Assembly (NCBI GenBank): GCA_017303455.1
Contig: JAFLBM010000004.1
Span: 124,001 to 188,000, forward strand
Reading direction: 5' to 3'
Length of the DNA: 64,000 nucleotides
Origin: Chitinophagales bacterium
GTDB taxonomy: Bacteria; Bacteroidota; Bacteroidia; Chitinophagales; Chitinophagaceae
The notes below the pieces were generated by a model. That model had not been told where the DNA came from, ran no database searches, and saw nothing but the letters and a program-made list of their open reading frames with translations. The position numbers and the translations under genes were made by a program. Shown piece by piece: positions 11,627 to 58,521 of the stretch (position 1 is the stretch's first letter; every line of letters begins with the position of its first letter).

Positions 11627-12286
11627 ATGAAAACAATTAAGATACTGATGATGGCAGTTTTAACCATCCTGTCTGTTTCTGTTTTTGCACAAGACAGTGT
11701 AAAGCATAAAACAAAAAACCAGAAACAAAAAGTAGAGAAGGTAAAGTATAGTTGCCCGATGCACCCGGAAGTAACGAGTGATAAGCCTGGTACCTGTACC
11801 CAATGCGGTATGTCACTTACCCTTTCTCCCAAAGAAAAGATGAAAATGGAAGTGATGAAAAAATATTCCTGCCCAACACATCCGGAAGAAACAAGCGATA
11901 AAGCCGGTAAATGTCCTCAATGCGGCAGCCTAATGAATCGTTCTCCCAAAGAAAAGATGAAAATGGAGGTAATGAAAACATATACCTGCCCTATGCACCC
12001 TGATGAGGTAAGTGATAAATCAGGCAAATGCCCCAAATGCGGAATGGATTTACAAAAAAAGGAGACAGTTAGCAAAGCGTATTCATGCCCGATGCATCCC
12101 GACATATCCGGTGATATGGGTGGCAAGTGTACTAAATGCGGAATGGATTTGACACTATCACCAAAAGAGAAAATGAAAAGAGAAGTGATGAAAATGTATT
12201 CATGCCCCATGCACTCCGATGTTACAAGCAATAAGCCTGGTAAATGTTCTAAATGTGGTATGGATTTAAAAGAAAAATCAAATTAA
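11627..12286 (+). CDS. Exported protein with five tandem HMBD (heavy-metal-binding) repeats
   Basis: 219 residues: signal peptide (VSVFAQD), then five ~24-residue repeats of the form Y-(S/T)-CP-x-HP-x5-D-K-x-G-x-C-x-x-CGM-x-L, at about residues 41-64, 81-104, 120-143, 153-176 and 193-216. Repeats 1-2, 2-3 and 4-5 are joined by the near-identical linker SPKEKMKMEVMK. HMBD repeats usually occur once or twice at the head of CusB adaptors or P-type ATPases; a free five-repeat protein looks like a periplasmic metal sponge. Repeat 2 deviates (CPTHPEE, CGSLM). It sits 37 bases before cusA, so a Cu(I)/Ag(I) buffer feeding the pump is the likely role. Confidence 0.88.
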   Translation: MKTIKILMMAVLTILSVSVFAQDSVKHKTKNQKQKVEKVKYSCPMHPEVTSDKPGTCTQCGMSLTLSPKEKMKMEVMKKYSCPTHPEETSDKAGKCPQCGSLMNRSPKEKMKMEVMKTYTCPMHPDEVSDKSGKCPKCGMDLQKKETVSKAYSCPMHPDISGDMGGKCTKCGMDLTLSPKEKMKREVMKMYSCPMHSDVTSNKPGKCSKCGMDLKEKSN

Positions 12287-22585: not shown

Positions 22586-23200
22586 ATGAAAAGAACAATT
22601 TTAGCTATTGCAATAATTTCGATGACTTTAGGTTTTGCGTCTTGTAAAAAAGAAACCAATGGTATTATCCTGCAGGCACATGATGATAACAGGATGATGG
22701 ATAGTATGCACACCATGATGAGCCGTATGGAAGCTATGACCATGACAATGGACCCGGAAGTAGATTTTAGTGAAATGATGATTATGCACCATGAAGGGGC
22801 ACTGAATATGTCGCAGGCACTTGTATCTGCTGGTAAAAATGACAGCCTGAGGCGATTTGCACAAAAAGTTATTGCAGACCAAACATCTGAAATTACAGTA
22901 CTTAAATCTATACTTGCTTCTTTGACTGTTAACAACATGGATATGGATTTTATGCAGGAGCAAATGGACAATATGGAAAAAACCAATAAGCAATCAGATG
23001 TGCAAATTATTACCGGCGATATTGATAACGATTATGCCACTTTAATGATTCTGCATCATCAGGCCGCTATTCAGGATGCTTCAGCTTATTTGCATCACGG
23101 CAATAATGCTCAGTTAAAAACAATTGCAAACAATATCATTACAGCACAGAATAAGGAAATAATAGAGCTTAGTAATTGGCTAAAGGCTAATAAGCGTTAA
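22586..23200 (+). CDS. DUF305 (CopM-like) lipoprotein
   Basis: 204 residues with lipobox (GFASCKK). Two DUF305 half-repeats are visible: DFSEMMIMHHEGALNMSQALVSAGKNDSLRRFAQKVIADQTSEITVLKSIL and DYATLMILHHQAAIQDASAYLHHGNNAQLKTIANNIITAQNKEIIELSNWL, each with a Met/His-rich first helix (MMIMHH, LMILHH). DUF305 proteins such as CopM bind copper in the periplasm. A Met-rich stretch (RMMDSMHTMMSRMEAMTMTMD) precedes repeat 1. It is likely cotranscribed with the propeller gene and ends at the strong terminator at 23238. Confidence 0.9.
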   Translation: MKRTILAIAIISMTLGFASCKKETNGIILQAHDDNRMMDSMHTMMSRMEAMTMTMDPEVDFSEMMIMHHEGALNMSQALVSAGKNDSLRRFAQKVIADQTSEITVLKSILASLTVNNMDMDFMQEQMDNMEKTNKQSDVQIITGDIDNDYATLMILHHQAAIQDASAYLHHGNNAQLKTIANNIITAQNKEIIELSNWLKANKR

Positions 23201-27582: not shown

Positions 27583-28503
27583 ATGGCACACGGTAAATTA
27601 TTCCCCCGCAAAACAAAAAGTGTAAAGGAATGGACGATTAGCTCTTTACAAATGAAGCAGCTTTCAAAGGAAGCCCCAAAAGAAATTACTAAACAAAAAA
27701 TTAAATCCCCTGAACTAAAAATCAACACAGAGGAATTACGATTTATTCCGGAGAAGTTTGTGCATAAAGATTTACTTGACCCACATTGGTTTTGGCACAA
27801 ATATTTTTGCAAGCCATTGTACCGCCGCAGAAAAAATCAAAAGAATCTTACTCCATTGGAATGGAACCGTTTTATTTATGCCATAGAAGCGTTAGCAGAT
27901 ACTGATACACCTGCACCAACTTACCAGGAATTTGTACAAATACATGTACAGGCAATGACGACACCTGCCGGACACATGTGGGGTGCACATGGCGGTATAA
28001 ATTTTTTAACATGGCACAGAGAATACCTTGCAAAATTAGAAGCAAGATTAATTGCTATTAATCCTTTGGTAACAATTCCTTATTGGAACTGGATTGAAGA
28101 CAGATATATACCACCTCAGCTAAATAACAATACCGATTTTACCCGTTGGGGAATTACAAGAGGTGGCTCTTTCAATGATACTTTATTGCCAACAGCTGCA
28201 CAACACGCCACGTTAATGGCAAATACAAATTTCACTACTTTTTCTTCTCAATTAGAAGCATCACCTTTCCACAACAGGTTACATGGTTTAGTAGGCGGCA
28301 CAATGGGAACGGCTTCATCACCTGCCGACCCCATCTTCTGGTTACATCATGGTTTTATAGATAAGTTATTTGCAGACTGGCAAATTTTAAACCCTGCCGC
28401 TATACATCCCAATTCTTCAGAAATATTAAAACCATCGCCTATTATGACAAGGACAAATGCACAGGTGTGGAGTACATTGGGTTTAGGATATATTTATGCT
28501 TAG
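27583..28503 (+). CDS. Tyrosinase-family binuclear copper enzyme
   Basis: 306 residues with no signal peptide. The copper-A region includes GAHGGINFLTWHREYLAKLEARL (~135-155) and the preceding HMWGAH; copper-B is HNRLHGLVGG ... SPADPIFWLHHGFIDKLFADWQ (~228-268), with the His-x-x-x-His and the HH-x-x-x-D pattern of type-3 copper proteins. The Lys/Glu-rich N-terminus (~1-60) is unique. Members oxidise phenols to o-quinones. A secreted or metal-chaperoned form is uncertain as no export signal is present. The next gene, 34 bases on, encodes an odd zincin-like protein and may be its partner. Confidence 0.9.
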   Translation: MAHGKLFPRKTKSVKEWTISSLQMKQLSKEAPKEITKQKIKSPELKINTEELRFIPEKFVHKDLLDPHWFWHKYFCKPLYRRRKNQKNLTPLEWNRFIYAIEALADTDTPAPTYQEFVQIHVQAMTTPAGHMWGAHGGINFLTWHREYLAKLEARLIAINPLVTIPYWNWIEDRYIPPQLNNNTDFTRWGITRGGSFNDTLLPTAAQHATLMANTNFTTFSSQLEASPFHNRLHGLVGGTMGTASSPADPIFWLHHGFIDKLFADWQILNPAAIHPNSSEILKPSPIMTRTNAQVWSTLGLGYIYA

Positions 28504-40020: not shown

Positions 40021-43000
40021 ATGCTGAACAGACTCATTCTCTTTTCCCTTAAAAACCGTATGTTGGTAGTGTCAATGGCTGCCCTGCTGATGGTATATGG
40101 CGTATTTACATTGGTTAATCTTCCTGTAGATGTACTGCCCGATTTAAACAGGCCAAGAGTAACCATTTTTTTAGAAGCCAATGGTATGGCTCCTGAAGAA
40201 ATTGAAGCCCAGGTAAACCTGCCTGTGGAAACGCAACTCAATGGTGCGCCGGGTGTGGAAGTGGTGCGTTCAGTAGCAAGCCCCGGATTGGGGATGGTGT
40301 TTGTAGAGTTTGACTGGAATACAGATGTGTACCGTGCAAGGCAATTAACTGCCGAAAAACTACAGAACATTCAATTACCGAAAGGCATAACGCCGGTGAT
40401 GGGGCCTATCAGTTCCATTATGGGACAGATTATGATGGTGGCGGTAACAAGTGATACAACTTCACCTGCTGATTTAAGAACACTTGCTGATTTTACCATT
40501 CGCAGACGACTGATGAGTGTAAAAGGTGTAAGCCAGGTGATACCGATTGGTGGAGAAAGAATGCAATACCAGGTTTTGATTTCAAGTGAAAAACTGAGGC
40601 AGTATAATCTGGCAATTGATGATGTTGATAACGCTTTGCAGCTTACTAATCAAAACACTACAGGTGGTTTTGTGGATAATAAAGGTTCGGAAACGCTTAT
40701 AAGAAACATTGGTCGTGCAAATACTCTGGAAGATTTAGCTAATACAGTTGTAAGCAACAGAAATGCGGCCCCTGTTTTATTAAAGCAAGTGGCAGAAGTA
40801 AAATTTGGCGGCCCAATAAAAAGAGGCGACGGTTCATTTAATGGTAAACCTGCCGTAATCCTGAGTATCGAAAAACAACCGGGTTCCAGTACACTTACGG
40901 TAACGGACGAAGCATTAAAGGCAATTGATGAAATAAAAGCATCACTCCCTGCCAATATTCATATCAATACTGATGTTTTCCAGCAAAAGAATTTTATTAT
41001 CAATTCAATTACCAATGTGGAAGAAGCGTTGAGAGATGGATTTATACTGGTAATCATCATCCTGTTTTTATTCCTGTTGAATTTCCGTACTACAATTATT
41101 ACGCTTACAGCTATTCCGCTATCTCTTATCATTACTGCTATCGTTTTTAAACTGTTTGGTATTTCAATTAATACGCTTACGCTCGGGGGCCTTGCTATCG
41201 CCATTGGCGAATTGGTGGACGATGCGATTGTGGATGTTGAAAATGTTTACCGTAGGTTAAAGGAAAACTGGGTCAGCGATAATCCTAAGCCTTTGCTGAA
41301 AGTAATTTATGAAGCCAGCAGTGAGGTAAGAAACTCGATAGTGTATGCCACTATTATTGTGGTGCTTGTTTTTATTCCGCTGTTTTATTTACAGGGAATT
41401 GAAGGAAGAATATTTGCACCTTTGGGTATTGCATATATTACTTCCATTGTTGCATCGCTGGTAGTATCATTAACAGTTACACCAGCCTTGTGCAGTTATT
41501 TATTAGGAAAGAAAAATCATTTACATCATATAAACCTTGCATTCTGGAAAAAGAAAAAAAAGGATATTTCTGTTGATGCAGCACATGAGCCGGATAGTGC
41601 TCTCGTTAGATGGCTGAAAAAACAAGACCTTAAGTTATTAAAATGGGGATTGAAGCGAACAAAACTGGTAGCCGGTACTGCAGTAGCCCTCATTATAGCT
41701 TCAGTAAGTATTGTACCTTTTTTTGGCACAGAATTTTTACCGCCTTTTAATGAAGGAACTTTCACTGTAAATATGGTTGCCCCGGCGGGTACATCGCTGG
41801 AAGAAAGTAATAAACTGGGAACGGTTGTTGAGCAGCAAATTCTTAAAGTGCCAGAGGTAGCCCTTACAGCCCGCCGTACCGGCAGGGCTGAACTGGATGA
41901 ACATGCAGAACCGCCAAGTTCATCCGAAATTGAAGTTGCATTGAAGCCCGGTGGCAGAAGCAGGGAAAAAGTGCTGGAAGAAATCCGGAATAATCTATCA
42001 GTGGTAAAAGGAGTATCAATAAATATTGGTCAGCCCATTTCTCACCGCCTCGACCATTTACTTTCAGGTGTTCGGGCACAGGTTGCCGTAAAAATATTTG
42101 GCAATGATTTATTAACGCTGCGTTCCAATGCAGAACAGTTGAAATCCATCATCAGTAATGTACCCGGCGTAGTGGATGTGCAGATTGAAAACCAGGTAAT
42201 GGTTCCGCAGCTTATGATTAAGCTTGACCGTATGGCTGTGCAGCGGTATGGTTTGCAGGTGGGCAATGTAGCAGATGAACTGGAAATATTTTATAATGGA
42301 AAAGTAGTAAGCCAGATACTGGATGGGCAAAAGAGTTTTGATATTGTACTCAGAACCGACGACAGCACAAGAAAAAATATTGATGCCATCCGCAATACGC
42401 AAATTGCAGCATCGGATGGTTCGTTAATCCCATTGAGCCAGATTGCAAAAATAGAATTAGAGAACAGCATCAATGCGGTTAATCATGAAAATACCCAACG
42501 CCGCATTGTTGTTTCTGCCAATGTGCAGGGCCGTGACCTTGGCAGTACTGTAAAAGAAATGCAGGAAACTGTAAAGAAAGAACTGCCCTTACAGGAAGGA
42601 TATTATCTGCAATGGGGTGGCCAGTTTGAAAGTCAGCAATCAGCTTCAAAATTAATTACTATACTCAGCATCTTTTCGATAGCTGGTATTTTCCTTGTAT
42701 TGTACAGCCATTTTAAAAGCAGCCGTATTGCATTACAGATAATGCTGAACATACCATTGGCATTAATAGGCAGCGTAATTGCGGTAATGCTTACAGGCGG
42801 GGTATTCTCTATTGCCACAATGGTTGGTTTTATTACTCTTACTGGTATTGCATCCAGAAACGGGATTATGATGATAAGCCATTATATCCATTTGGTACAA
42901 CACGAGGGAGAAATATTTAACGATAAAATGATAATCCGTGGCTCATTGGAAAGATTAGTGCCGGTACTAATGACAGCGCTGGTTGCAGCTTTTGCGCTGA

Positions 43001-43188
43001 TACCGTTAACAATGGATGCTACGGCTCCCGGTAAAGAAATTCTGTACCCTGTCGCTACAGTTATTTTGGGTGGCTTGGTTAGTTCAACATTATTAGACAT
43101 GATTGTAACTCCCGTTGTTTTTAAACTGTTTGGGGAAAAGGCCCTGAAGAAATATTTGGCTGAGCAGGAAAAAAAAGAGTTGAATTAA
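40021..43188 (+). CDS. CzcA/CusA-family RND heavy-metal pump
   Basis: 1055 residues, complete. TM1 and [32 protein letters not shown], the proton-relay helix [29 protein letters not shown], second half [28 protein letters not shown] and [23 protein letters not shown]. At the places of the three CusA methionines I read Asn, Ile and His ([24 protein letters not shown]), so the Cu(I)/Ag(I) triad is absent and a different site or metal is likely. Works with the TolC and adaptor genes at 34666-37523, from which four small periplasmic-protein genes separate it. Confidence 0.93.
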   Translation: [1055 protein letters not shown]

Positions 43189-44053: not shown

Positions 44054-44623
44054 ATGAAAAAGAAATTTTATTTACTGCTTTTACTAACTGCGACAGCATT
44101 TTCAGTAACAGCACAACAGCAAAAGAAAGAAGAGGTTTGCTACAATCCCAACTTAGTAAAAGACACCAGTAAGAAAAGTATCAAATCAATGGCTTTCGCA
44201 ATAGTGAATGGAGATAGTGTTAAGATAAACTATCACTCTCCCGGAGTTCGTAAAAGAATTATTTGGGGTGGCCTTGTTCCTTATGATGAAGTATGGGTAA
44301 CTGGCGCACATGATGCTACTACACTCGAAATGCCAAAAGCGTTTGTTGTTAATGGCAAAGAAATACCTGCCGGTAAATATGCCATTTTTACTATTCCGGG
44401 CAAATCGGAATGGATATTGATTATTAATAAAATTTGGAAACAGCATCTTGCCACAGAGTATGATGAAAAAGAAGATGTGGTAAGAATAAAAGTAAAACCA
44501 AAGAAAAATATGCATACAGAAAGGCTGCAATATTTTATAGAAGCGACTGAAGGCAATAATGAAAAAATCACAGTGGCATGGGAAAAATTAAAAATAGAAT
44601 TTGAACTAAAAATTATAAAATAA
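44054..44623 (+). CDS. DUF2911 exported protein
   Basis: 189 residues: signal peptide (SVTAQQ), then the DUF2911 pattern: VKINYHSPGVRKRIIWGGLVPYDEVWVTGAHDATTLEMPKAFVVNGKEIPAGKYAIFTIPGKSEWILIINK. Function is not established for the family; it is widespread in Bacteroidota as periplasmic or surface beta-rich proteins. It sits 18 bases after the methyltransferase gene and 5 before the next DUF4440-type gene. Confidence 0.87.
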   Translation: MKKKFYLLLLLTATAFSVTAQQQKKEEVCYNPNLVKDTSKKSIKSMAFAIVNGDSVKINYHSPGVRKRIIWGGLVPYDEVWVTGAHDATTLEMPKAFVVNGKEIPAGKYAIFTIPGKSEWILIINKIWKQHLATEYDEKEDVVRIKVKPKKNMHTERLQYFIEATEGNNEKITVAWEKLKIEFELKIIK

Positions 44624-44628
44624 GCGCT

Positions 44629-45153
44629 ATGAAAAAAATATTATTCTTTATTGTATTTGCTTTGATTGTCTCTTTTCCATCAATTTCTCAAAGTAAAGAA
44701 GAAGGTACCGACCGAGCAGCAATCAAACAATTTTTTAAGGATAGGGATACAAATACAGTTTCGCCTAAAAGTAAATATATTAATGCAGTCAAAGCTGTCC
44801 TGAAACAATATAACAGTGCATTAGAAAAACTGGATATATCAGGCACAGAGAATCTTTTTACCTACGATTCTGAAATTTATGAATCTGGCACAAGTGAAGG
44901 AACTTATACCCATTATATGCAAGAACATTTGAGGCCTGAGTTAAAGGGATTCAAGTCACTAAAATTTAATGATTACAAAGTGGATGTTACAATTGTTGGC
45001 AATTATGCTTTTGCAACAGAAACATATAACTATGTAAAAGTAGCGACAAAAGACAATACAGAGGTGAAACAGAAAGGGGTTACTACCTCCGTATTAAAGA
45101 AAGTAAAAGGCGAATGGAAGATTACGGTAAGTCATAATTCATCAAGAAATTAA
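44629..45153 (+). CDS. Exported NTF2-like (DUF4440-type) protein, paralogue
   Basis: 174 residues: signal peptide (PSISQS), a ~30-residue charged insert, then the same NTF2-like domain as 37539 (VKAVLKQYNSALEKLDISGTENLFTYDSEIYESGTSEGTYTHYMQEHLRPELKGFKSLKFNDYKVDVTIVGNYAFATETYNYV, SVLKKVKGEWKITVSHNSSR). The two copies flank the RND pump gene by some kilobases on each side, pointing to duplication within the island. Role unknown. Confidence 0.82.
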   Translation: MKKILFFIVFALIVSFPSISQSKEEGTDRAAIKQFFKDRDTNTVSPKSKYINAVKAVLKQYNSALEKLDISGTENLFTYDSEIYESGTSEGTYTHYMQEHLRPELKGFKSLKFNDYKVDVTIVGNYAFATETYNYVKVATKDNTEVKQKGVTTSVLKKVKGEWKITVSHNSSRN

Positions 45154-45159
45154 AAGCCA

Positions 45160-46077
45160 ATGTTCAAAGACTTTCCTTCCCTGCATCCTTTAGTAGTACA
45201 CTTTCCGATAGTGCTTATACTGCTGGCGGCAGCTTTCCAGGGCGTTGTGTTCTGGAAACCTCAATGGCATCAAATCAGGTGGGCTACATTAATTATAATG
45301 GGATTAGCTTTCATTTCTGCTTTGGCGGCAAGCACATTGTTTCATGCAATGATTACTCCCAATGCACCTAAAGAAGCCTTAGCCATATTTGAGGAACATG
45401 AAAAGTATGCACAATATACTTTGTGGATGTCGGGCTTTACTTTCCTGATAAAAGGTATTGGTGATTTTTATAAGTTATTCCGCCGCTCTTATCAGTTCAT
45501 CGTGTTATTATTTGCAATTGTTACCGCTGTGTTTCTGTCCATTGCCGGCCATCATGGGGCAAAACTTACACATGTTGCCGGAGTAGGGCCTATGGGAAAA
45601 TACCTGATGAAGGAGCATGGCGAAAAAGGTATGGAAGGAATGGACATGCAGGGTGACAGTACGATGCAGATGAATGATTCAATGCCAGGCATGAAAAATA
45701 TGCCGGGAATGGATACCATGAAGAGTATGGACATGAAGAATATGCCAGAAATGGATACGATAAAAAACATGAAAGGTATGAAAGGAATGGACGAGATGAA
45801 AAATATGAAGGGCATGAACAACATGAAAGATATGAAGAATATGCCCGGTATGGATACCATGAAGAATATGAAAGGTATGGACAATATGAAAGACATGAAG
45901 GATATGCCCGGCATGGATAAAATGAAAGATATGAAGGATATGCCCGGCATGGACAGCAGCATGAAGATGGGCGATATGAAAAATATGAATATGCCGGTAA
46001 AAAATGCAATGGACACCTTTCGTTTTCCTGATAACAACCCTGCCAGAAGTAAATCAGGGAAAAAAAGTAAACAATAA
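45160..46077 (+). CDS. DUF2231-like membrane protein with a long Met-repeat tail
   Basis: 305 residues. Residues 1-~145: four membrane helices with the DUF2231 start LHPLVVHFPIVLILLAAAFQ and a later GHHGAKLTHVAGVG. From ~150 to ~288 is a low-complexity tail in which Met recurs about every third residue (KNMPGMDTMKNMKGMDNMKDMKDMPGMD type): I count 42 Met in ~139 residues. Met-x-x-Met arrays bind Cu(I). The tail presumably faces the periplasm. It starts 6 bases after the DUF4440 gene and is followed after 11 bases by the multicopper oxidase, whose own Met insert is similar. A copper reservoir or donor for the oxidase is a good working idea. Confidence 0.85.
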   Translation: MFKDFPSLHPLVVHFPIVLILLAAAFQGVVFWKPQWHQIRWATLIIMGLAFISALAASTLFHAMITPNAPKEALAIFEEHEKYAQYTLWMSGFTFLIKGIGDFYKLFRRSYQFIVLLFAIVTAVFLSIAGHHGAKLTHVAGVGPMGKYLMKEHGEKGMEGMDMQGDSTMQMNDSMPGMKNMPGMDTMKSMDMKNMPEMDTIKNMKGMKGMDEMKNMKGMNNMKDMKNMPGMDTMKNMKGMDNMKDMKDMPGMDKMKDMKDMPGMDSSMKMGDMKNMNMPVKNAMDTFRFPDNNPARSKSGKKSKQ

Positions 46078-46088
46078 ATTAGTGTGCA

Positions 46089-48356
46089 ATGAAACAGTTT
46101 CAATTCCTTTTATTGTTAATTCCTTTTTGCAGTATGGCTCAAGAAAATAAATCCATGCAAATGCCGATGGGTAAAGAATCCGGAATGCGAAAATCTACAA
46201 CTTACGATTACCCTCTGCAACCCGTGCAAACCAAACCGGGAATGGCCTACATGGGAAAAAGAGTGGAATACGATTTATATATAACTGACACGATGGTGAA
46301 TTTTACAGGCAAGCATCGCCATGCCATTGCCATCAATGGACAAATACCTGCTCCTATTCTTGAATTTACAGAAGGCGATACCGCTATCATCCATGTTCAC
46401 AACATGATGAAGATGGAAACATCTATTCACTGGCATGGAATATTATTACCCAATAAAGAAGATGGCGTTCCCTATTTAACTACTTCGCCTGTTGAACCTG
46501 GAGAGACTTACACATTCACTTTCCCACTTATTCAAAGCGGCACATACTGGTATCATTCACATACCATGTTGCAGGAGCAAAGCGGCTTGTATGGTTCTAT
46601 TGTAATACATCCTGCACAACCTGAACCAAACTTGAAAGAATATCTTTTGTTACTGTCTGACTGGACAGATGAAAACCCTCACCAGGTATTGCGATACCTG
46701 AAACGTGGCGGCGAATGGTATGCCATTAAAAAAGGCGCACTGCAAAGTTATGGAGAAGCAATTGCTGCCGGTTCTTTTAAAGATAAACTAAAGCAGGAAT
46801 GGCAGCGTATGCCAGCAATGGATGTATCTGATGTTTACTACAATAAATTCCTGATGAACGGACAGGAAAAAAATTATTTTAAAGATGCAAAGCCCGGCGA
46901 AATAATAAGGCTTCGTATTATTAATGGCTCAGCCTCCTCTTATTTTACACTTCAGTATGGAATGAGTTACATGCGGCTGATAGCAGCAGATGGAATAAAC
47001 GTTACTCCTGTTTCTGTAAGCAAATTAGAAATTGCCACTGCAGAAACGTATGATGTTTTAATTACTGTTCCCGAAACCGGTGCAGAAGAATTAAGAGCTA
47101 CATCATGGGATGTCGTAGGCTTTTCATCCGGTTATTTTGGAAACGGCCCTATAATGAATGCACCTGATATTCCCAGACTTGACTATTTTAAAATGATGAG
47201 GGAAATGGGCAGCATGAATATGAATGGTATGAAAATGGACGACATGGACATGAAGAACATGGATATGAGGGAAATGAAAATGCCATCAGATACCATTCCC
47301 ACAAAAAAGGATATGGACATGAGTAATATGGATGGCATGAGCATGGGAAATATGCAGGGAATGGATATGGCAATGCCCGGTGAATTTAATTATAACATGC
47401 TCCGGGCACTGCACCCGACAACATTGGATTCAACTTTGAAACCAAGAGAAATTAAATTAACACTTACAGGGAATATGCTGCGCTATGTATGGTCATTTGA
47501 TTTTAAGACTTTATCAACAGCCGATAAAATTCTCATCCGCAAAGGTGAAAGGGTAAGGTTTGTTTTAACCAATAATACCATGATGCGCCACCCCCTGCAC
47601 CTGCACGGCCACTTCTTCCGCTTCATCAATGCACAAGGCGAATATTCACCACTGAAACATACATTCGATATTAAACCAATGGAGACAGTTACCATTGAGT
47701 TTGAAGCAAACGAAGAGAAGGATTGGTTTTTTCATTGCCATATTCTTTACCACATGATGGCGGGTATGGCTCGTATTGTAAGCTATGAAGGAAGTGAGCA
47801 AAATGAATTCGCTAAAACCGGTTATCGCAAATTAAAGAAAGAAGACAATATACTTTATCCCTGGTATGACTTATCTGTTCATTCACAAGGGGCATGGCTG
47901 AGTGGAAATATCTCAAACAATAAAATGGCATTGGAATTTGAAGGACGAGCAAGTTGGAAAGGTGATTATGAAACTGAAACGCATCTACTTCGTTACCTCG
48001 ACAAAAAACAATACCTCGCTTTTTATATAGGCTATGATTACCGAAAAAATAAAACACTTCCATTAGCTAATAAGCCCAACTCAAAGGATAACCGAAGGGT
48101 TTTTGATGCTGGCTTTTACTATTTGCTGCCTATGCTAATTCGCTCCGAATGGAGGATTGACCATACAGGCCGTTTAAGGCTGCAATTGGAAAGACGGGAT
48201 TTACCCCTGAGCAATAATTTCTTTTTCGATTTCCGTGTAAATACCGATAAGGAATATAATGTAGCAGCAAGATATATGATTGCGAAATCATTTTCCATCA
48301 GCACAAATTATGACAGCGATTACAAATGGGGAATAGGATTAACATGGCACTATTAA
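46089..48356 (+). CDS. CopA/PcoA-type multicopper oxidase with a CopB-like C-terminal domain
   Basis: 755 residues: signal peptide (CSMAQE) and a Met-rich start. Copper sites in order: SIHWHGILLP (~114), YWYHSHTMLQEQ (~155), HPLHLHGHFFRF (~500) and WFFHCHILYHMMAGMARI (~545) with the type-1 Cys, His and axial Met. A Met-rich insert lies at ~372-440 (MNMNGMKMDDMDMKNMDMRE-like). After ~570 the chain resembles CopB/PcoB-type outer-membrane barrel sequence (DLSVHSQGAWLSGNISNNKMALEFEGRAS, GIGLTWHY end). It would oxidise Cu(I) and bind copper in the periplasm, possibly tethered to the outer membrane. The fusion end is less certain. Confidence 0.9.
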   Translation: MKQFQFLLLLIPFCSMAQENKSMQMPMGKESGMRKSTTYDYPLQPVQTKPGMAYMGKRVEYDLYITDTMVNFTGKHRHAIAINGQIPAPILEFTEGDTAIIHVHNMMKMETSIHWHGILLPNKEDGVPYLTTSPVEPGETYTFTFPLIQSGTYWYHSHTMLQEQSGLYGSIVIHPAQPEPNLKEYLLLLSDWTDENPHQVLRYLKRGGEWYAIKKGALQSYGEAIAAGSFKDKLKQEWQRMPAMDVSDVYYNKFLMNGQEKNYFKDAKPGEIIRLRIINGSASSYFTLQYGMSYMRLIAADGINVTPVSVSKLEIATAETYDVLITVPETGAEELRATSWDVVGFSSGYFGNGPIMNAPDIPRLDYFKMMREMGSMNMNGMKMDDMDMKNMDMREMKMPSDTIPTKKDMDMSNMDGMSMGNMQGMDMAMPGEFNYNMLRALHPTTLDSTLKPREIKLTLTGNMLRYVWSFDFKTLSTADKILIRKGERVRFVLTNNTMMRHPLHLHGHFFRFINAQGEYSPLKHTFDIKPMETVTIEFEANEEKDWFFHCHILYHMMAGMARIVSYEGSEQNEFAKTGYRKLKKEDNILYPWYDLSVHSQGAWLSGNISNNKMALEFEGRASWKGDYETETHLLRYLDKKQYLAFYIGYDYRKNKTLPLANKPNSKDNRRVFDAGFYYLLPMLIRSEWRIDHTGRLRLQLERRDLPLSNNFFFDFRVNTDKEYNVAARYMIAKSFSISTNYDSDYKWGIGLTWHY

Positions 48357-48383: not shown

Positions 48384-50663
48384 ATGGACCAGAATCATCA
48401 AACCCCACAACAATACACCTGCCCCATGCATCCTGAAATAATTCAGGACAAACCAGGCAATTGCCCTAAATGTGGAATGAACTTAATTCCGCTAAATAGC
48501 AAGCAAAGCGAAAGTCACTCAAATCATCATGGGCATACTAAAGTTGAAAAACATACTGGGCAAGAAGAACAACCTGCTCCTGTAGTAAACATTAGTAAAG
48601 CAAAAGGATTTCAGAAATATACCTGCCCCATGCATCCGCAGATTGTACAGGATGAACCGGGGAAATGCCCTTTATGTGGAATGACGTTGGTGCCGCTTTC
48701 AAAAGCCGCATCTCATGAGGGGCATGGGTCGCATTCGTCAGGAATTGCTGATTTCAAAAAAAGGTTTTATGTTGTTTTGGTACTTACCATACCCATTATG
48801 CTGTTATCTGAAATGATACAGCACTGGTTAAATTTCCATATCAGCTTTATAGGTTCAAAGTATGTGCTGCTTGTTTTATCATCCATTGTGTTTTTTTATG
48901 GTGGCTGGCCATTCCTGAAAGGGCTTGTTGGAGAAATGCGGGCCAAAAACCCTGGTATGATGACATTGGTGGCATTTGCCATTTCAGTTGCTTACATCTA
49001 CAGCGTAGCCACTGTGTTTGGGTTAAAAGGCATGGATTTTTTTTGGGAGTTGGCAACACTTATTTTAATAATGCTCCTGGGCCATTGGATAGAAATGAAA
49101 TCAGTAGCAGGTGCGTCCAGAGAGTTGGAGTTATTGGTTCAGTTGATGCCGGACGATGCACATTTGGTAACCGGGGATAAAATTACCGATGTAAAAACGG
49201 AATCACTTAAAGAGAAAGATATTATACTTATCAAACCCGGCGAAAAAGTTGCCGCTGATGGTATAATAGTGGATGGTGTAAGCTACCTCAACGAATCTAT
49301 GCTTACCGGCGAATCGAAACCCGTGGAAAAAACAAAAAGCGATAAAGTGATTGCAGGTTCCATCAATGGCAACGGAGCCATAAGGATTTCTGTATCTCAT
49401 GGTGCTGCTGATTCTTATCTATCGCAAGTAATAAAGCTGGTGCAGGACGCACAAAAGTCAAAATCAAAAACACAATTAATTGCAGACCGGGCCGCAAAAT
49501 GGTTGACCTTGATAGCAATTGTAGCTGGTATCACTACTTTTCTTGTATGGTATTTGTCGGGGAAAGACCTTGCCTTTTCTATTGAACGGATGGTAACGGT
49601 AATTGTAATTTGTTGCCCTCATGCTTTAGGTTTGGCTGTGCCGTTGGTTGTTGCAAAATCAACAGCTTTATCTGCAAAACATGGACTGCTGATTAAAAAC
49701 AGAACCGCTTTTGAAAATGCAAGAAAAATAACCACACTGGTATTTGATAAAACAGGAACGTTAACAGTGGGTAAATTCCAGGTAGTGCGGTTTGTAACGC
49801 ATAGTGATAAATACACCAAAGAGCAGATACTCCAATACGCAGCAGCCCTTGAACAAAACTCCGAGCATCCCATTGCTACAGGCATAACATCCAAAGCCAA
49901 AGAAATGAAAATGGAGCTGCCTTCTGTAATGGGCTTTGAAGCCATCACGGGTAAAGGAATATTTGGCATAATTGACAGAAAGAATATGATGGTAGTAAGC
50001 CCAGGCTATCTGCAGGGAAAATTTACTTTCTTAACAAAAGAAGAAGTAGTAAAAGCTGAGGAGACACTTGTATTTGTATTAATTGATGATGATATTGCCG
50101 GTTCAATTGCCCTGGCTGATGAAATAAGACCAGAATCAGCAGAAGCTATAAAGACCTTACATGAAAACAATATTAAGACCATATTGCTCACAGGCGATAA
50201 TGCAACTGTGGCAAAAGGTGTATGTGAGCGGCTGGGCATGGACAGTTTTATTGCTGAAGTATTACCGCATCAGAAGTTAGAAAAAATTAAAGAACTGCAA
50301 AGCCAGGGTGAATTTGTTGCTATGACAGGTGATGGTGTAAATGATGCACCTGCATTGGCACAGGCCAATGTAGGTATTGCAGTTGGTTCAGGTTCTGATA
50401 TCGCCGCCGAAACAGCAGGGATAGTACTGGTAAACAGTAACCCGAAAGATGTTGTTTCACTCATTCAGTTTGGTAAAGCCACTTACAGAAAGATGATTCA
50501 GAATTTGATTTGGGCAACCGGGTATAATGTAGTGGCTTTACCATTGGCGGCAGGTGTATTGTATAAAATGGGAATCTTGCTAAGTCCTGCTGCAGGAGCT
50601 GTACTCATGAGTGTAAGCACAGTTGTTGTAGCCATTAATGCAAGTTTGTTGAAAGTAAAATAA
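48384..50663 (+). CDS. CopB-type copper P1B ATPase (CPH motif) with two N-terminal HMBDs
   Basis: 759 residues. Two HMBD repeats (YTCPMHPEIIQDKPGNCPKCGMNL, ~12-35; YTCPMHPQIVQDEPGKCPLCGMTL, ~75-98) with His-rich spacers in place of HMA domains. Core: TGES (~309), CCPHALGLAVPLVVAKSTALSAKHG (CPH, ~410), DKTGTL (~455), HPIATGI, GDGVNDAPALAQANVGIAVGSG (~649). The CPH motif defines the P1B-3/CopB group (Cu2+/Cu+/Ag+). It should export copper from the cytoplasm, complementing the RND pumps that act on the periplasm. Follows the oxidase gene by 27 bases. Confidence 0.95.
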   Translation: MDQNHQTPQQYTCPMHPEIIQDKPGNCPKCGMNLIPLNSKQSESHSNHHGHTKVEKHTGQEEQPAPVVNISKAKGFQKYTCPMHPQIVQDEPGKCPLCGMTLVPLSKAASHEGHGSHSSGIADFKKRFYVVLVLTIPIMLLSEMIQHWLNFHISFIGSKYVLLVLSSIVFFYGGWPFLKGLVGEMRAKNPGMMTLVAFAISVAYIYSVATVFGLKGMDFFWELATLILIMLLGHWIEMKSVAGASRELELLVQLMPDDAHLVTGDKITDVKTESLKEKDIILIKPGEKVAADGIIVDGVSYLNESMLTGESKPVEKTKSDKVIAGSINGNGAIRISVSHGAADSYLSQVIKLVQDAQKSKSKTQLIADRAAKWLTLIAIVAGITTFLVWYLSGKDLAFSIERMVTVIVICCPHALGLAVPLVVAKSTALSAKHGLLIKNRTAFENARKITTLVFDKTGTLTVGKFQVVRFVTHSDKYTKEQILQYAAALEQNSEHPIATGITSKAKEMKMELPSVMGFEAITGKGIFGIIDRKNMMVVSPGYLQGKFTFLTKEEVVKAEETLVFVLIDDDIAGSIALADEIRPESAEAIKTLHENNIKTILLTGDNATVAKGVCERLGMDSFIAEVLPHQKLEKIKELQSQGEFVAMTGDGVNDAPALAQANVGIAVGSGSDIAAETAGIVLVNSNPKDVVSLIQFGKATYRKMIQNLIWATGYNVVALPLAAGVLYKMGILLSPAAGAVLMSVSTVVVAINASLLKVK

Positions 50664-50726: not shown

Positions 50727-51206
50727 ATGAAAACAACATGCTTTTTACTTCTGACTATTATTTTGTTTAGTAGCTGTGGCAAAAATAGTTCATCAAAAGA
50801 AACCATCGGGCAAGATGATGTTTCCGCTACCACCGGCATGACAAATGAGCAATTATCAATGCGTCAGGCAGTAACCAATCTTGCAGTGGCACAGAATTCA
50901 GGTCAGCGGCATCATTGGGACAGCATATACCACCATCATGATTCTTTATTCTGGCATCACCATAATAATTACCATCACAATACTTATACGCATGATGACC
51001 ATAGCCATCAGTGGGTGCCTTATGACCCTGCCATAAATCATTCGCACCACTACCACCATCCCTACCCCGGTCATCTCAATGATTCATTGATTACTGTATT
51101 GAATAATCATCATCATACTAATTGCGAGCATCACCCTGGCCACCATATTTGTCATCACCACACAATGGATTCATTACATCATGTACATAACCTGCACCAT
51201 CCATAA
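50727..51206 (+). CDS. Extremely His-rich lipoprotein
   Basis: 159 residues: lipobox (FSSCGKN), a short linker with TNEQLSMRQAVTNLAVAQ, then ~100 residues holding about 34 His, many in runs (YHHHDSLFWHHHNNYHHN, HTNCEHHPGHHICHHH). Two Cys in the His region could help metal binding. No known catalytic domain. Most likely a periplasmic or surface copper/nickel/zinc sink made alongside the CopB ATPase; it might also store metal or protect the membrane. The composition could mislead searches. Confidence 0.82.
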   Translation: MKTTCFLLLTIILFSSCGKNSSSKETIGQDDVSATTGMTNEQLSMRQAVTNLAVAQNSGQRHHWDSIYHHHDSLFWHHHNNYHHNTYTHDDHSHQWVPYDPAINHSHHYHHPYPGHLNDSLITVLNNHHHTNCEHHPGHHICHHHTMDSLHHVHNLHHP

Positions 51207-53031: not shown

Positions 53032-56000
53032 TTATATCCTCATCCCTTTACTTTTTTTCTCAACTGATTCTTTTTTTGGTAGAAGCGTTTTTTCAATTTT
53101 TATAACAGGGGTTTCTTTAACCCCTTCTTTAGGAGAGCTATGTTCCTCACCCGCTAATTGTTTTTTCTGAATTTTTATGGTGATTTCTCTTTCAAGGTTG
53201 GCTACTTCTTTTTTAAGCTGTGCCAATTCAGATTCTTTCTCAAAAGGCTTTGCCACTAATAGTTCAAGCATTGGAATATTATGTTCCAGTTCTTTACAAT
53301 TCTTTTCATACTTTTCTTTTAGCGCATCCACCCTGTCTATACAATTTAAAAAATGCCGGGCAGCCAATTTAGGATTATCAGTATTAAGATGTCCCTGGTT
53401 CCAGGTGTATTTTATACCGGTTGCCTGGCTTTCGGCGTAGAACGTATTTTGGTAGCGATATTCAAACATGCTGTTGTTTTCATAAGTTTCTTTCTGGCGA
53501 CGTATCATGCAATCAAAACCATACAGGCTGCCGACTTTAAGGCTATCATCTTCACCGGGCTTAGGTTTCCAGTTAAGTGATAGTTGAATAAGATGGATGC
53601 CGATGGCTTCTGCTGTTGTGGCAGGGCAATCTTTTATTTGCACCGGATTTGATTTAGTGCCGTCTTTTTCAAAGGCTAATACTTTATTATAAGCCGATTC
53701 GTCTGTGGCTAATTTTGTGAGAGTTTGCATTGTTGTTTCTTTATCCCTTTGCATATTCTCCAACTGAAACCGTGACCGGATTACTTCTTTATGATGGGCA
53801 TTGCGGAGACTTTCCAACACAGCTATCTTCTTTTCCATTTTTGATTTTTCCAGCAGTGTTGTATCACCGGATAAAATGGCGATGTATTCTGAAAAGTTCA
53901 TCCCACTCTTTTCATCAATGCTGCCCTCGTCAATCGTCCGCACATTCAGTTCGCAGTTTTTCATCTGGCTGATAAAAGTTTGTTTATTCTTCAGCAAATT
54001 GAATTTGTAATTATCTAATGATTGCTCAACTGCATAAATGAAGTTCTGCACTTTGTTATCGTAGTTTTCTTTTGCCAGCTTGTTTCCCTGCCTGGCACCA
54101 CGGCCGTTACGTTGTTCCAGCTCTGATGGCTTCCAGGGAATATCAAGGTGGTGCATTGCTACAACTTTTGCCTGTACATTTAAACCAGTACCTGCTTTCT
54201 CTGTACTGCCCAGCAAAATCCGTATTTCACCATTATTCATTTTCCGGAACAGTTCTGGCTTTTGCCTGTCTGTCCAGTCATGAATGAAAGTAATTTTGTT
54301 AGCAGGAATATCAAAATCTGTAACCAGTTTTTCTTTTAACGCATCATAAATATTAAACTCATTGGGCTTAGGTGTACCAATATCGCTAAACACAATTTGT
54401 GTTCCCCTGCTTTCAATACTTTCATTATAGACTTCAGCAATCTTTCTTGCACAAACATTTACTTTATGATTAGGATGGTCTTCATATAAAGAAGAATCTA
54501 TCAGCCGCATATCAGCCGCCATTTTCTTTGCATAATTTGTAGCTATGAGCATTCGGCCTCTGTCTTCTTCATCTGTTAAAGGTGGCCTTCCAATTAAAGA
54601 GCCATCACCAGTTTTAGCAAACTGCATCAGTTTCTTAATAAATTCTCGCTGGTCTGGTGTGGGTGGAATATTGACTAATTGTTCAGCCAATTCAGGTTTA
54701 TCCAAATTGATATGTTTGGCAGTTTTATAATCGGTGATTTCATTATAAAACAAAGCCAGTTCCGGCACTTTTATAAAATGACGGAAACGTTCCTTCGCAA
54801 TGATTTCATTGGTAACAGAAAATTCAAAGTCAACAGTCTTCTTTGCGAATACTGCTGCCCAGCCATCAAAATTTTCAATACGTTGCCGTTCCATTTCATT
54901 TGGCCGCAGGTATTTAAACAACAAATACATTTCTGTAAGGCTGTTGCTAATGGGTGTGCCGGATAAAAACGTTACACATAAATCACTCCTGAATTTTTCC
55001 TGCAAGGTTCTCACAGCAAAGAGCATATTCAAAGCCTTTTGGCTTCCCTGCTGGTTGCCCAATCCTGCTACACGGTCATGCCTTGTGGTAAAAGTGAGGT
55101 TCTTAAATTTATGTGCCTCATCAACAAACAAATGGTCAATACCTAATTCCTTGAAGTTGATACCGGCATCTTTCTTTTCGTCAATGGCTTTTCTTAACTC
55201 TTGCAATTTTACTCCCAGGTTTGTTTTGCGTATCTCCAAACCTTTCAACATTCGCCGGGAAATTTCGCCACCCATATCTTTAATGGTGTACAAATCTCTT
55301 TCGATGTTATCTAATTCTGCCTGAAATATCTGCCGTTGTATTTCCGGGCTTTGAGGAATTTTTCCAAACTGGTCATGCGTAAGTAAAATACAATCCCAGT
55401 TGTTGTTTTTTATTTCATGAAAGAGCCGCAACCGTTTGGTTGGAGTAAAATCATTTTCACCCGGAGCCAGTATCCTTGCATTGGGATAAGCTTTGCGATA
55501 GGTTTCTGCAATCTGGTTAACATTTGCCTTTAAAGCAAGTATCATCGGTTTATTGGCAACACCCAGCCGTTTCATTTCATAAGAAGCCACAACCATCGTC
55601 AATGTTTTTCCCAAACCAACTTCATGGTCAATCAATGCTCCACGATTTTGTATGATACGCCAAACCGAATTTTTCTGCGAACTGTATAAATCATCTATAC
55701 CCAATCTTCTTTTATCCAAATTGGGAAACTGCAAATGGCTTCCATCATATTCTCTCAGTACATAACAATTAAAAGTATCATTGTACAGATTAACCAATTC
55801 AGTCTTGTCTGCTTCGGGCAATTCCTTCAGCCATTCTACAAAATTGCTTCTGATGGTTTCTACTTTTTGATGCCCCAATTGAATGGCATCATTGTCAGGC
55901 ACCCGGATAGTTTTATCGCCTACATCAACCTCATAAGAAAAGAAGGGAGTGGTATTTTCCAACGCATGTTCTAATAATTTATCGCCAAACATCCGTCTGC

Positions 56001-58521
56001 CATCTTTCGGCTGCACGGCATATTCCTGGTCAATCTTTGCATTGCTGGATGATACCTTTACTTTAAATGTATCGACAGAAGCGAAATAGGTTACCTCAGT
56101 ATTTAACTCAAAAATGTGCGATGCAAAACGGTTGTAATAATCAAGCGGTATCCATCTTTCACCCAAGTTAAAATCCAGCAATTCAAAAGGTATTTTCTCT
56201 GGCTGTACTTTTTCTAATGCCTGCAGGCTTCTTAGTAATTGTGCATTCTCCGAATTTTTATTTACTACTTCAGTAGCTATACGCCATTTGCTTACCACAT
56301 TACCACTTAATAACTGGTCGGCTGTTTCCCACTCATTGTTTAAAGGGTTTAAGTAGATATGATTGCCCAATGCTGTAATAGCTTCCTCTTCTGTAGAGTC
56401 AGTGGCGGCAGCAATAAATTCCATATCTACCTTGCCTTTATCATTCAGGCTTTTTGCCAATGCTTCCAGCGGATTAGCCGTGTGAAATGCTTCTTGCTTT
56501 TGTACTAATGACTGTGTGAGTATATCTGCTTTTACAAATTGTTCGCCTTCCTTTCTTTCTAAAGATGCCAGCATTGTCAAACCAAATGCCTCATCCTTTA
56601 ATATGCGTTGCTTATTTGTGTTTGAATTTAACAACCCATGGCCCCTGGTTAAAGCATCATACGACTCATTCAATTCCTTTCTTAGCTTGGGGAACTCAAT
56701 CTTTTCAGTTAGTTCTTTATCTGCCAATAACAAATACCTGTCTCTTACCAATGTGTATTGCTGATAAAATGCTAAATCTTTTTTATCGTAAATGCTGGGG
56801 AGAAAAACAGGTTTATCTTTTTCACCAGTAAGAAATGAAACAAAACCAACCCGGTTTTTGTGTACAATTAAAGTGGCCTCTTTATGATAAGGGTTGACAT
56901 CTTTTATAATGTCATCTTCTTCAGTCCCCAATGAGATATGAAAAACCGACTCACCTTCATTATAAAATTCGTGGCCATATTGTTTTAGTAAATTGGAAAG
57001 TGCTTTTAATTCATTTTGAAAAGCTGCCGCATTCATCCAGTTGGCTCCAAATTGTAGCTCATCGAAATTTGAATAAAGTTTGTAAGCATACTGCTTAAAG
57101 GCGATAGATTTGGCCGTGAGCATTACAATACCTTCATGCTCCGGGTTGTCTTTTGTTTTGATGATATTAAGGAGTCTTGCAGTTTTCTTATCTACCACAG
57201 TAGCATCAAGAGGATTGATATAAGCCATTGCCCGATTTATGTTTGCTGCCGGAGCAATATCAAACAATCCTAACTGTACAGAATTGTTATCGGCAATATT
57301 TTCAGGAATGGGCAAATAAGTTAACTGTTTGCCTGTAAGCTTTGGCTTTATGGTTAATTCCTGTTCAAACGATTTTTTATTGAACCGTTTTCTTAAACCA
57401 TCCACAATAGTTGCAGACAACTTACCCTCAATTCCATTGATATTACCTTTTTGCCAGATAGCTTCAGTAGCTCTGCCGTATTGATTTTTTCCTGGCTTAA
57501 TTTCATTGGCGGCAATGATTTCGGGGTGCAGGACGATGTACTGGTTTACATGATATTCGCCAAATTCATTTTGCTGTTCAGTTGTCTGAATCAAGTTTTG
57601 TTCATGGGTTGTTATATCTTTTTTACCCGTTTGTTTTTGCACAATTAGCAGATGTGATGGTGCTTCTGTGTTACCAGTATCTTTCATCAGGTTATCCGGT
57701 AATACAGAAAGGCTGATAAAATTTGAATTGTGAAAAAGATATTCTCTGGCTGGTTTATTGGATGGACTGTTTAGGAACGCATCGGTCGTTACATAGGCAA
57801 GCAAGCCGCCTTCTTTAATTTTATCAAGTCCTTTTGCAAAAAAATAGTTATGTATTTTGCCAGAAATATTTTCATCCGGATATTTTTCATCAAGTACTTT
57901 GAAATTACCAAACGGGATATTGCTTACAATTAAATCACTGCTGCCATTTTCATCATTGCTGGTGTTTTCAAACCCTGTCACCTGCACGGTAACAGGAACG
58001 GGTATCGAACTACTAAGTGCAGTCAATACCCGTCCCGTCAGTATATCTTTTTCTATGGCTGTAATATTTTGTAAGGATGGAAAAGTATTTACAGCCTGAG
58101 CACTAAAAACCCCGGCGCCGCTGCTGGGTTCATACAGGTTTTTGGGTTCAATACCCTGTTTCTTTAATTCAGTAAACAGAACTTTGGGAATAATCTCCGG
58201 AGTGTAAAATGCTGTAAGGATACTGTTACGTAACGAATCAATTGTATCCTTGTATTCCTTTTCGCTTAGATGCTGTTGCAACAAATGGTGCAACTCAATA
58301 ATATCAGCATACAATGCCAGGTCTGCTTTGGTTGCATTGAGTTTAACCCATTCATCTTTTGGCGCATTAGGAAACAGTATGGCTTTCAATCCGCCAAAAC
58401 CAGAATACTGCCGCAGAGATTGCACCTGTTCATCAGAAAGTTTTTGTCGCTGATTGTATTCAAGTGCAACCCTGATTGCAGCAATATTATCCTTCAGCTT
58501 TTGTTGGCTGTTGTAACTCAT
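53032..58521 (-). CDS. Giant N6-adenine methylase-like plus SNF2-type helicase protein of a mobile element
   Basis: 1829 residues. Near residue 139 a SAM-binding motif ([15 protein letters not shown]) and near 203 a motif IV variant (SNIPFG instead of NPPF/Y). Helicase core: Walker [18 protein letters not shown] (~970), Walker [10 protein letters not shown] (~1137), motif [18 protein letters not shown], and C-terminal motifs [17 protein letters not shown] and [12 protein letters not shown] (~1472). The C-terminal 100 residues are coiled coil and Lys-rich. Such proteins accompany Bacteroidota conjugative elements and resemble phage/plasmid antirestriction (DarB-like) proteins. The role here, defence evasion or DNA processing, is inference. 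It overlaps the upstream gene by 35 bases. Confidence 0.82.

Follow-up and report, generated by a model that had tools for sequence, protein, structure and literature searches.

Gene order and the methionine-rich membrane protein

The window (the whole 64,000-nucleotide stretch of DNA that was analysed) carries on its forward strand an open frame with an ATG start for a DUF2231 membrane protein whose C-terminal part is an array of methionines. The start codon of a multicopper oxidase gene lies 11 bp beyond its stop codon (Table 1), in agreement with a preliminary description of this DNA, which had placed the gene directly before such an oxidase with a Met insert of its own. We counted 22 Met in residues 366–435 of the oxidase. 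The order RND pump, DUF2911/SnoaL-like pair, DUF2231 gene, oxidase and Cu-ATPase was repeated in most of the Chitinophagaceae loci, while Hymenobacter plasmids and a few others retained parts of this gene order, always including the DUF2231–oxidase pair where the contig allowed.

Table 1. Features of the copper locus, with positions in the window and the basis of each assignment.
Feature	Position	Strand	Basis
RND (CusA/CzcA-like) efflux pump, conserved upstream neighbour	40021..43188	+	ORF, synteny; assigned by reading the sequence
DUF2911 protein, conserved upstream neighbour	44054..44623	+	Pfam, synteny
SnoaL/NTF2-like secreted protein, upstream, in some relatives only	44629..45153	+	Pfam, synteny
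DUF2231 membrane protein with C-terminal Met array, 305 aa	45160..46077	+	ORF and translation; PF09990 37.4 bits
DUF2231 core, four predicted TM helices (residues 8–32, 37–59, 71–103, 109–138)	45181..45573	+	AlphaFold blocks, residues 11–140 pLDDT 82–98
Met array, residues 145–288, 43 Met, mostly MxxM register, predicted disordered and periplasmic	45592..46023	+	AlphaFold, sequence counts
End motif RFPDNNPAR (residues 288–296), then Lys-rich end	46021..46047	+	Alignment of 21 sequences
CopA/PcoA-type multicopper oxidase, 755 aa	46089..48356	+	Pfam Cu-oxidase domains; TIGR01480 437 bits; copper-ligand motifs; laccase fold Z 27
Oxidase Met-rich insert, about residues 366–436, 22 Met	47184..47396	+	Sequence count
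Oxidase C-terminal 12-stranded antiparallel domain, residues 588–755, probable CopB-like outer-membrane barrel	47850..48353	+	AlphaFold, CopB profile match
Cu-translocating P-type ATPase, two HMBD domains, gene after the oxidase	48384..50663	+	TIGR01511 583 bits; PF19335

Our profile searches assigned residues 8–143 of the protein to PF09990 (DUF2231; 37.4 bits against a gathering cut-off of 26.4) and AlphaFold modelled a four-helix bundle, which bears out the earlier reading of the gene as encoding a DUF2231-like membrane protein; 30 of the 31 members of alignment A5 likewise matched PF09990 at E≤0.1. Across 35 relatives, H62 and H80 were invariant and H9, H14 and H131 nearly so (the alignment gaps at H9 and H14 come from the start codons chosen for the relatives). 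Loops 1 and 3 were basic and loop 2 acidic in 21 homologues, a distribution that, by the positive-inside rule, would place the N-terminus, loop 2 and the tail in the periplasm. A PDB fold search with the core returned generic helical bundles only, among them a designed bundle with two haems, and we drew no conclusion on function from these matches. The literature search found no paper tying DUF2231 to copper.

The whole protein contains 47 Met, 43 of them in residues 145–288 (30% of that stretch) and 42 in residues 149–288, the count of about 42 given previously. The reported recurrence of Met about every third residue, with Lys, Asp, Gly and Pro between, was also recovered: 30 of the 42 Met-to-Met steps are exactly three residues, the MxxMxxM pattern occurs 25 times with overlaps, and the spacers are chiefly Lys, Asp, Gly, Asn and Pro. 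With the Met background of the neighbouring proteins (2.7%), the binomial probability of at least 43 Met in 144 residues is 2e-32. His occurs once in the 162 residues of the arm. The low pLDDT over most of the tail (about 46–56, AlphaFold) predicts disorder. At the end of the tail, sequences resembling RFPDNNPAR were kept from Chitinophagaceae to Hymenobacter (21 aligned sequences), and the motif was missing in the tailless relatives, including locus L110. Two antisense ORFs across the tail (45552–46103 and 45590–46009, both on the reverse strand) were rejected as genes, being mirror images of the repeat.

The tail had further been held to lie far beyond the Met content of known copper proteins, which stood as to rank but not as to scale. 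The densest 144-residue window held 43 Met in the DUF2231 tail compared with 27 in the adjoining oxidase, 27, 20 and 21 in three proteobacterial CopA/PcoA proteins and 25 in a Sphingomonas CopB, so that the tail is the densest of those compared, but only by a factor of 1.6–2. Nor is it without precedent, since SilE, PcoE and the N-terminal region of CopB/PcoB are known Met-rich disordered copper binders, although SilE and PcoE have far fewer Met than the DUF2231 tail.

The adjoining oxidase and its genomic setting

In the alignment, the copper-ligand motifs HWHG, HSH, HPLHLHGH and HCHxxxHxxxGM of the oxidase were intact, and a PDB fold search with its model found resemblance to laccases (Z up to 26.8) and CueO (24); the model is weak in the catalytic part (mean pLDDT 61), but the domain identity is clear. 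As the TIGR01480 score of 437 bits falls under the curated cut-off of 479, the oxidase is to be regarded as a CopA/PcoA relative rather than as a strict member of that family.

The C-terminal strands of the oxidase were modelled in blocks mostly of pLDDT 78–90 (AlphaFold). Its last residues are WHY, and an aromatic last residue was present in all 26 of the oxidases aligned. A profile of this domain compared with five CopB proteins gave E values of 3–6e-5 (probability 66–75%), against E≥0.04 for column shuffles and reversed controls. The Pfam CopB family (PF05275) did not match the predicted barrel domain in the window and matched one of 19 relatives at E 0.004, and no other Pfam family matched the window's copy of the domain. 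Run against PDB sequences, the profile of the predicted barrel yielded a single, spurious match, and the matches given by PDB fold searches of the oxidase were taken up by the oxidase domain, so that the absence of PcoB among them tells nothing. The predicted barrel domain recurs in Bacteroidota copper-cluster oxidases generally, including those at loci with a tailless DUF2231 gene.

The 12 predicted strands and the CopB profile match, taken with the 12-stranded barrel of the PcoB crystal structure (PMC9210255) and the fused PcoA–PcoB noted in Legionella (PMC3548706), point to a probable CopA–CopB fusion anchored in the outer membrane. The N-terminus of the fused oxidase carries a Sec-like signal in which no twin Arg was seen, and on this basis the protein would be expected to cross unfolded and copper-free.

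The host genome gave no match for CopB (PF05275), CopC or CusF, all of which were searched with control genomes that did give matches, so that some other Cu(I) carrier could be taking their place; a search for the MopE family matched nowhere and was thus uninformative. The Met-tail DUF2231 gene was missing from three sampled congeners of the host, the sequence collections searched being samples, and the cluster is therefore accessory in the host genus. Directly after the Cu-ATPase gene, 50727–51206 (+) encodes a small protein, probably a lipoprotein, in which 34 of the 159 residues are His. L032, L033 and L036 have such a gene in the corresponding position, and its product may be to Cu(II) what the Met arm would be to Cu(I).

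Relatives of the tailed protein and selection on the tail

A DUF2231 core with a Met-rich tail of 150–240 residues was found at 22 further Bacteroidota loci (several near-identical, and one a second copy of the same contig) in Chitinophagaceae, Cyclobacteriaceae and Hymenobacter plasmids, with 22–58 Met in the tail among relatives; no viral relatives were found. Every tailed locus with a readable downstream gene had an oxidase 6–81 bp on, always of one subtype (at least 1077 bits); the 81-bp spacing and the missing motif at L041 reflect a run of N in the tail, and the L040 contig breaks off within the oxidase gene. Elsewhere in the survey, DUF2231 genes ended differently, and an oxidase was either missing from the vicinity or of a more divergent subtype (at most 855 bits) and usually non-adjacent; at L137 an oxidase lies 30 bp downstream of a DUF2231 gene without a tail. 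The association between Met tails and CopA-type oxidases suggested in the preliminary description thus held across the homologues as adjacency at all tailed loci readable downstream, together with one coupled loss at L110.

On the tree built from the core only, the presence and absence of the tail takes two changes. L110 is nested among tailed sequences (99/97 support, inside a 100/100 clade) and has lost both tail and motif; its sole cluster oxidase lies 5 kb off, is of the other subtype with a longer Met insert, and there is no adjacent partner. A tail hidden at L110 by a frameshift was considered and rejected, as none of the three frames on that strand continued with Met-rich sequence. A single origin of the tail is probable, so that its link with the oxidase amounts to one gain and one loss rather than to many independent events. 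A tailless close relative with intact copper resistance had been named beforehand as evidence against the copper reading, and L110, with about 64% identity in the part that aligns, corresponds to this in being tailless while keeping an oxidase and a Cu-ATPase, but departs from it in that the oxidase is of another subtype. Copper clusters without a Met tail do exist, as L110 and the tailless relatives demonstrate.

The Met insert of the oxidase had a median length of 70 residues at tailed loci versus 147 elsewhere (P 0.0002, uncorrected for relatedness); shorter inserts beside tails would be consistent with Met ligands being divided between oxidase and DUF2231 protein, but the two groups are also clades. 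Among DUF2231 relatives in copper clusters, those at L121 and L139 have a soluble-looking extension of about 110 residues, and the relatives at L086 and L114 have an apparent second DUF2231 copy.

The tail is under purifying selection and is conserved between families. Its DNA is a diverged tandem array (units of 27–99 bp) and its length differs among relatives, but synonymous codons are mixed (AAA 14/AAG 9; GAT 10/GAC 8; three Gly codons) and tail dN/dS was 0.05–0.18 (pairwise, only where estimable), which together rule out simple slippage of a DNA repeat. Identity was 88–98% at Met positions versus 59–98% at spacers, with Met ahead in seven of the eight pairs compared (46/47 versus 85/106 in one of them), while in the closest pair, the window and L032, 40/42 Met positions and 91/93 spacers were identical. 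The low dN/dS and the usually better retention of Met positions indicate that the protein sequence is under selection.

When 395 Bacteroidota genomes were searched for six ATG codons in the M..M register, no comparable array in a likely gene turned up among the matches fetched and translated; these included simple-repeat DNA, an oxidase insert and Ffh-like C-termini, the last with 19 Met in 140 residues. At the DNA level the DNNPA motif is too short for an informative search. At L041:8001-9005 the run of N lies within the Met tail and the reading frame is shifted after it. Because the repeats in the tail invite gaps during assembly, tail lengths taken from draft genomes call for caution.

Comparison with known copper systems and proposed role

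Met-motif Cu(I) carriers such as hCtr1 ligate Cu(I) through Met thioethers in a disordered region, but there is no homology with the DUF2231 protein, and hCtr1 has few sites compared with the long array here. It is among the comparisons drawn in a study of Caulobacter, where the disordered N-terminus of CopB/PcoB was required for Cu efflux and PcoA stability (PMC12509749). CopB/PcoB resembles the present system in having a Met-rich arm, disordered and periplasmic there and predicted to be so here, on a membrane protein that is genetically tied to a CopA/PcoA oxidase, and in its twelve-strand barrel, which is also predicted at the C-terminus of the oxidase here. However, the arm of CopB/PcoB (PF05275) is N-terminal, Met/His-rich and carried by the barrel protein, whereas the DUF2231 arm is C-terminal, nearly His-free and carried by a predicted inner-membrane four-helix protein, with the predicted barrel fused to the oxidase. 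The periplasmic proteins SilE and PcoE also contain Met, and each chain takes up several Cu(I)/Ag(I), as the DUF2231 arm would (up to 8 Ag(I) for SilE, which is disordered, and up to nine Cu(I) for PcoE; PMC5008109), but they are soluble, lack a membrane anchor and use both His and Met ligands; in view of its four predicted membrane helices, the DUF2231 protein may work like such a sponge by analogy, but is not a member of that group. The partner oxidase shares domains, copper-ligand motifs and a Met insert with PcoA/CopA (TIGR01480) and differs in its extra, predicted C-terminal barrel and in the twin-Arg signal, which was not seen. The fused PcoA–PcoB of Legionella differs from the arrangement here, which is from Bacteroidota, shows a divergent predicted barrel and keeps the Met arm apart on the DUF2231 protein.

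The conservation of the tail only where one oxidase subtype is encoded next to it makes it probable that the tail holds Cu(I), on a tether, for that oxidase, and we regard as fairly likely the fuller proposal that an inner-membrane-anchored periplasmic Met array buffers Cu(I)/Ag(I) and hands Cu(I) to the adjacent barrel-fused oxidase. The four-helix DUF2231 protein in the inner membrane would anchor a disordered, Met-dense arm of about 160 residues in the periplasm, acting as a high-capacity, low-complexity ligand of a soft monovalent metal (Cu(I), and probably Ag(I) too). Periplasmic Cu(I), coming from the Cu-ATPase or awaiting RND efflux, would be buffered by the arm, which, anchored and spanning much of the periplasm, could offer it to the Met insert of the oxidase. 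The oxidase would then turn Cu(I) into Cu(II) at the outer membrane, with exit through or near the barrel, and the RFPDNNPAR end may dock to the oxidase partner. Metal binding, hand-off to the oxidase and docking are steps that we infer from the arrangement described above. The preliminary description had pictured a membrane-bound array feeding an oxidase; as the oxidase is itself predicted to carry a fused outer-membrane barrel, that picture shifts to one leading from the inner membrane to the outer membrane. A more specific version, which we put forward only tentatively, is a two-membrane Cu(I) relay in which the arm crosses the periplasm and docks through RFPDNNPAR to the CopA–CopB fusion with no soluble chaperone, the conserved His cluster of DUF2231 perhaps binding haem or a metal where the inner membrane faces the periplasm.

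The arm could instead merely sequester periplasmic Cu(I)/Ag(I), in the manner of a SilE/PcoE fixed to the membrane, and pass none of it specifically to the oxidase. The composition of the tail and the SilE/PcoE precedent agree with this, and its wide variation in length and Met number (22–58) is what bulk capacity would lead one to expect, but the confinement of the tail to one oxidase subtype, the joint loss in L110 and the conserved RFPDNNPAR end are left unexplained, and we consider pure sequestration rather unlikely. Unlikelier again is an arm serving mainly as a chaperone or stabiliser of the oxidase–barrel fusion, through metal loading or protection from degradation. The stabilisation of PcoA by the disordered PcoB region in Caulobacter (PMC12509749) is a parallel, and the expected crossing of the oxidase in an unfolded, copper-free state speaks for it as well; however, 43 Met are far more than the loading of four coppers requires, and such a function overlaps with the tethered array and could be part of it.

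Two further explanations seem improbable. Surface Met in the periplasm might absorb reactive species generated by copper and be repaired by Msr enzymes, and the oxidation and repair of periplasmic Met in copper-stressed E. coli is the topic of PMC9302797, but the regular MxxM register and a partner oxidase with a Met insert point to metal coordination, and an oxidant sink requires no such spacing; we give this role little credence. Least credible is a functionless, neutral expansion of low-complexity sequence, for although the tail DNA does consist of diverged tandem units, the low dN/dS, the mostly better retention of Met positions than of spacers, the conservation between families and the conserved end motif all argue against it.

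Both the DUF2231 anchor and its pairing with the oxidase appear to be undescribed in the literature searched, Met-rich disordered copper binders as such being already known. The tethered-array reading would give a proposed role to part of DUF2231, a widespread uncharacterised membrane family, and suggests that Bacteroidota have rearranged the PcoA/PcoB device, with the barrel fused to the oxidase and the Met-rich arm shifted to an inner-membrane partner. The tailed loci, L110 and the tailless relatives form natural presence/absence pairs in which the function of disordered Met-rich arms in copper resistance is testable, and dense Met arrays may serve as useful Cu(I)/Ag(I) binders.

Elsewhere in the window, 11627–12286 (+) encodes a 219-residue secreted protein made up almost entirely of repeated YxCPMHPxxxxxxxGKCxxCGM heavy-metal-binding units, and 27583–28503 (+) is tyrosinase-like by eye (motifs WHREYL and HNRLHG/HHGFID). 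A Met-rich protein that is DUF305-like by eye (22586–23200, +) lies beside a YncE-like repeat protein, and an Adhaeribacter plasmid (L104) also has annotated DUF305 and YncE genes near its DUF2231 gene. On the reverse strand, 53032–58521 encodes a methyltransferase/helicase-like protein of 1829 residues, by eye of the kind found on Bacteroidota mobile elements, which, together with the copies on Hymenobacter plasmids, suggests a copper island moving between hosts.
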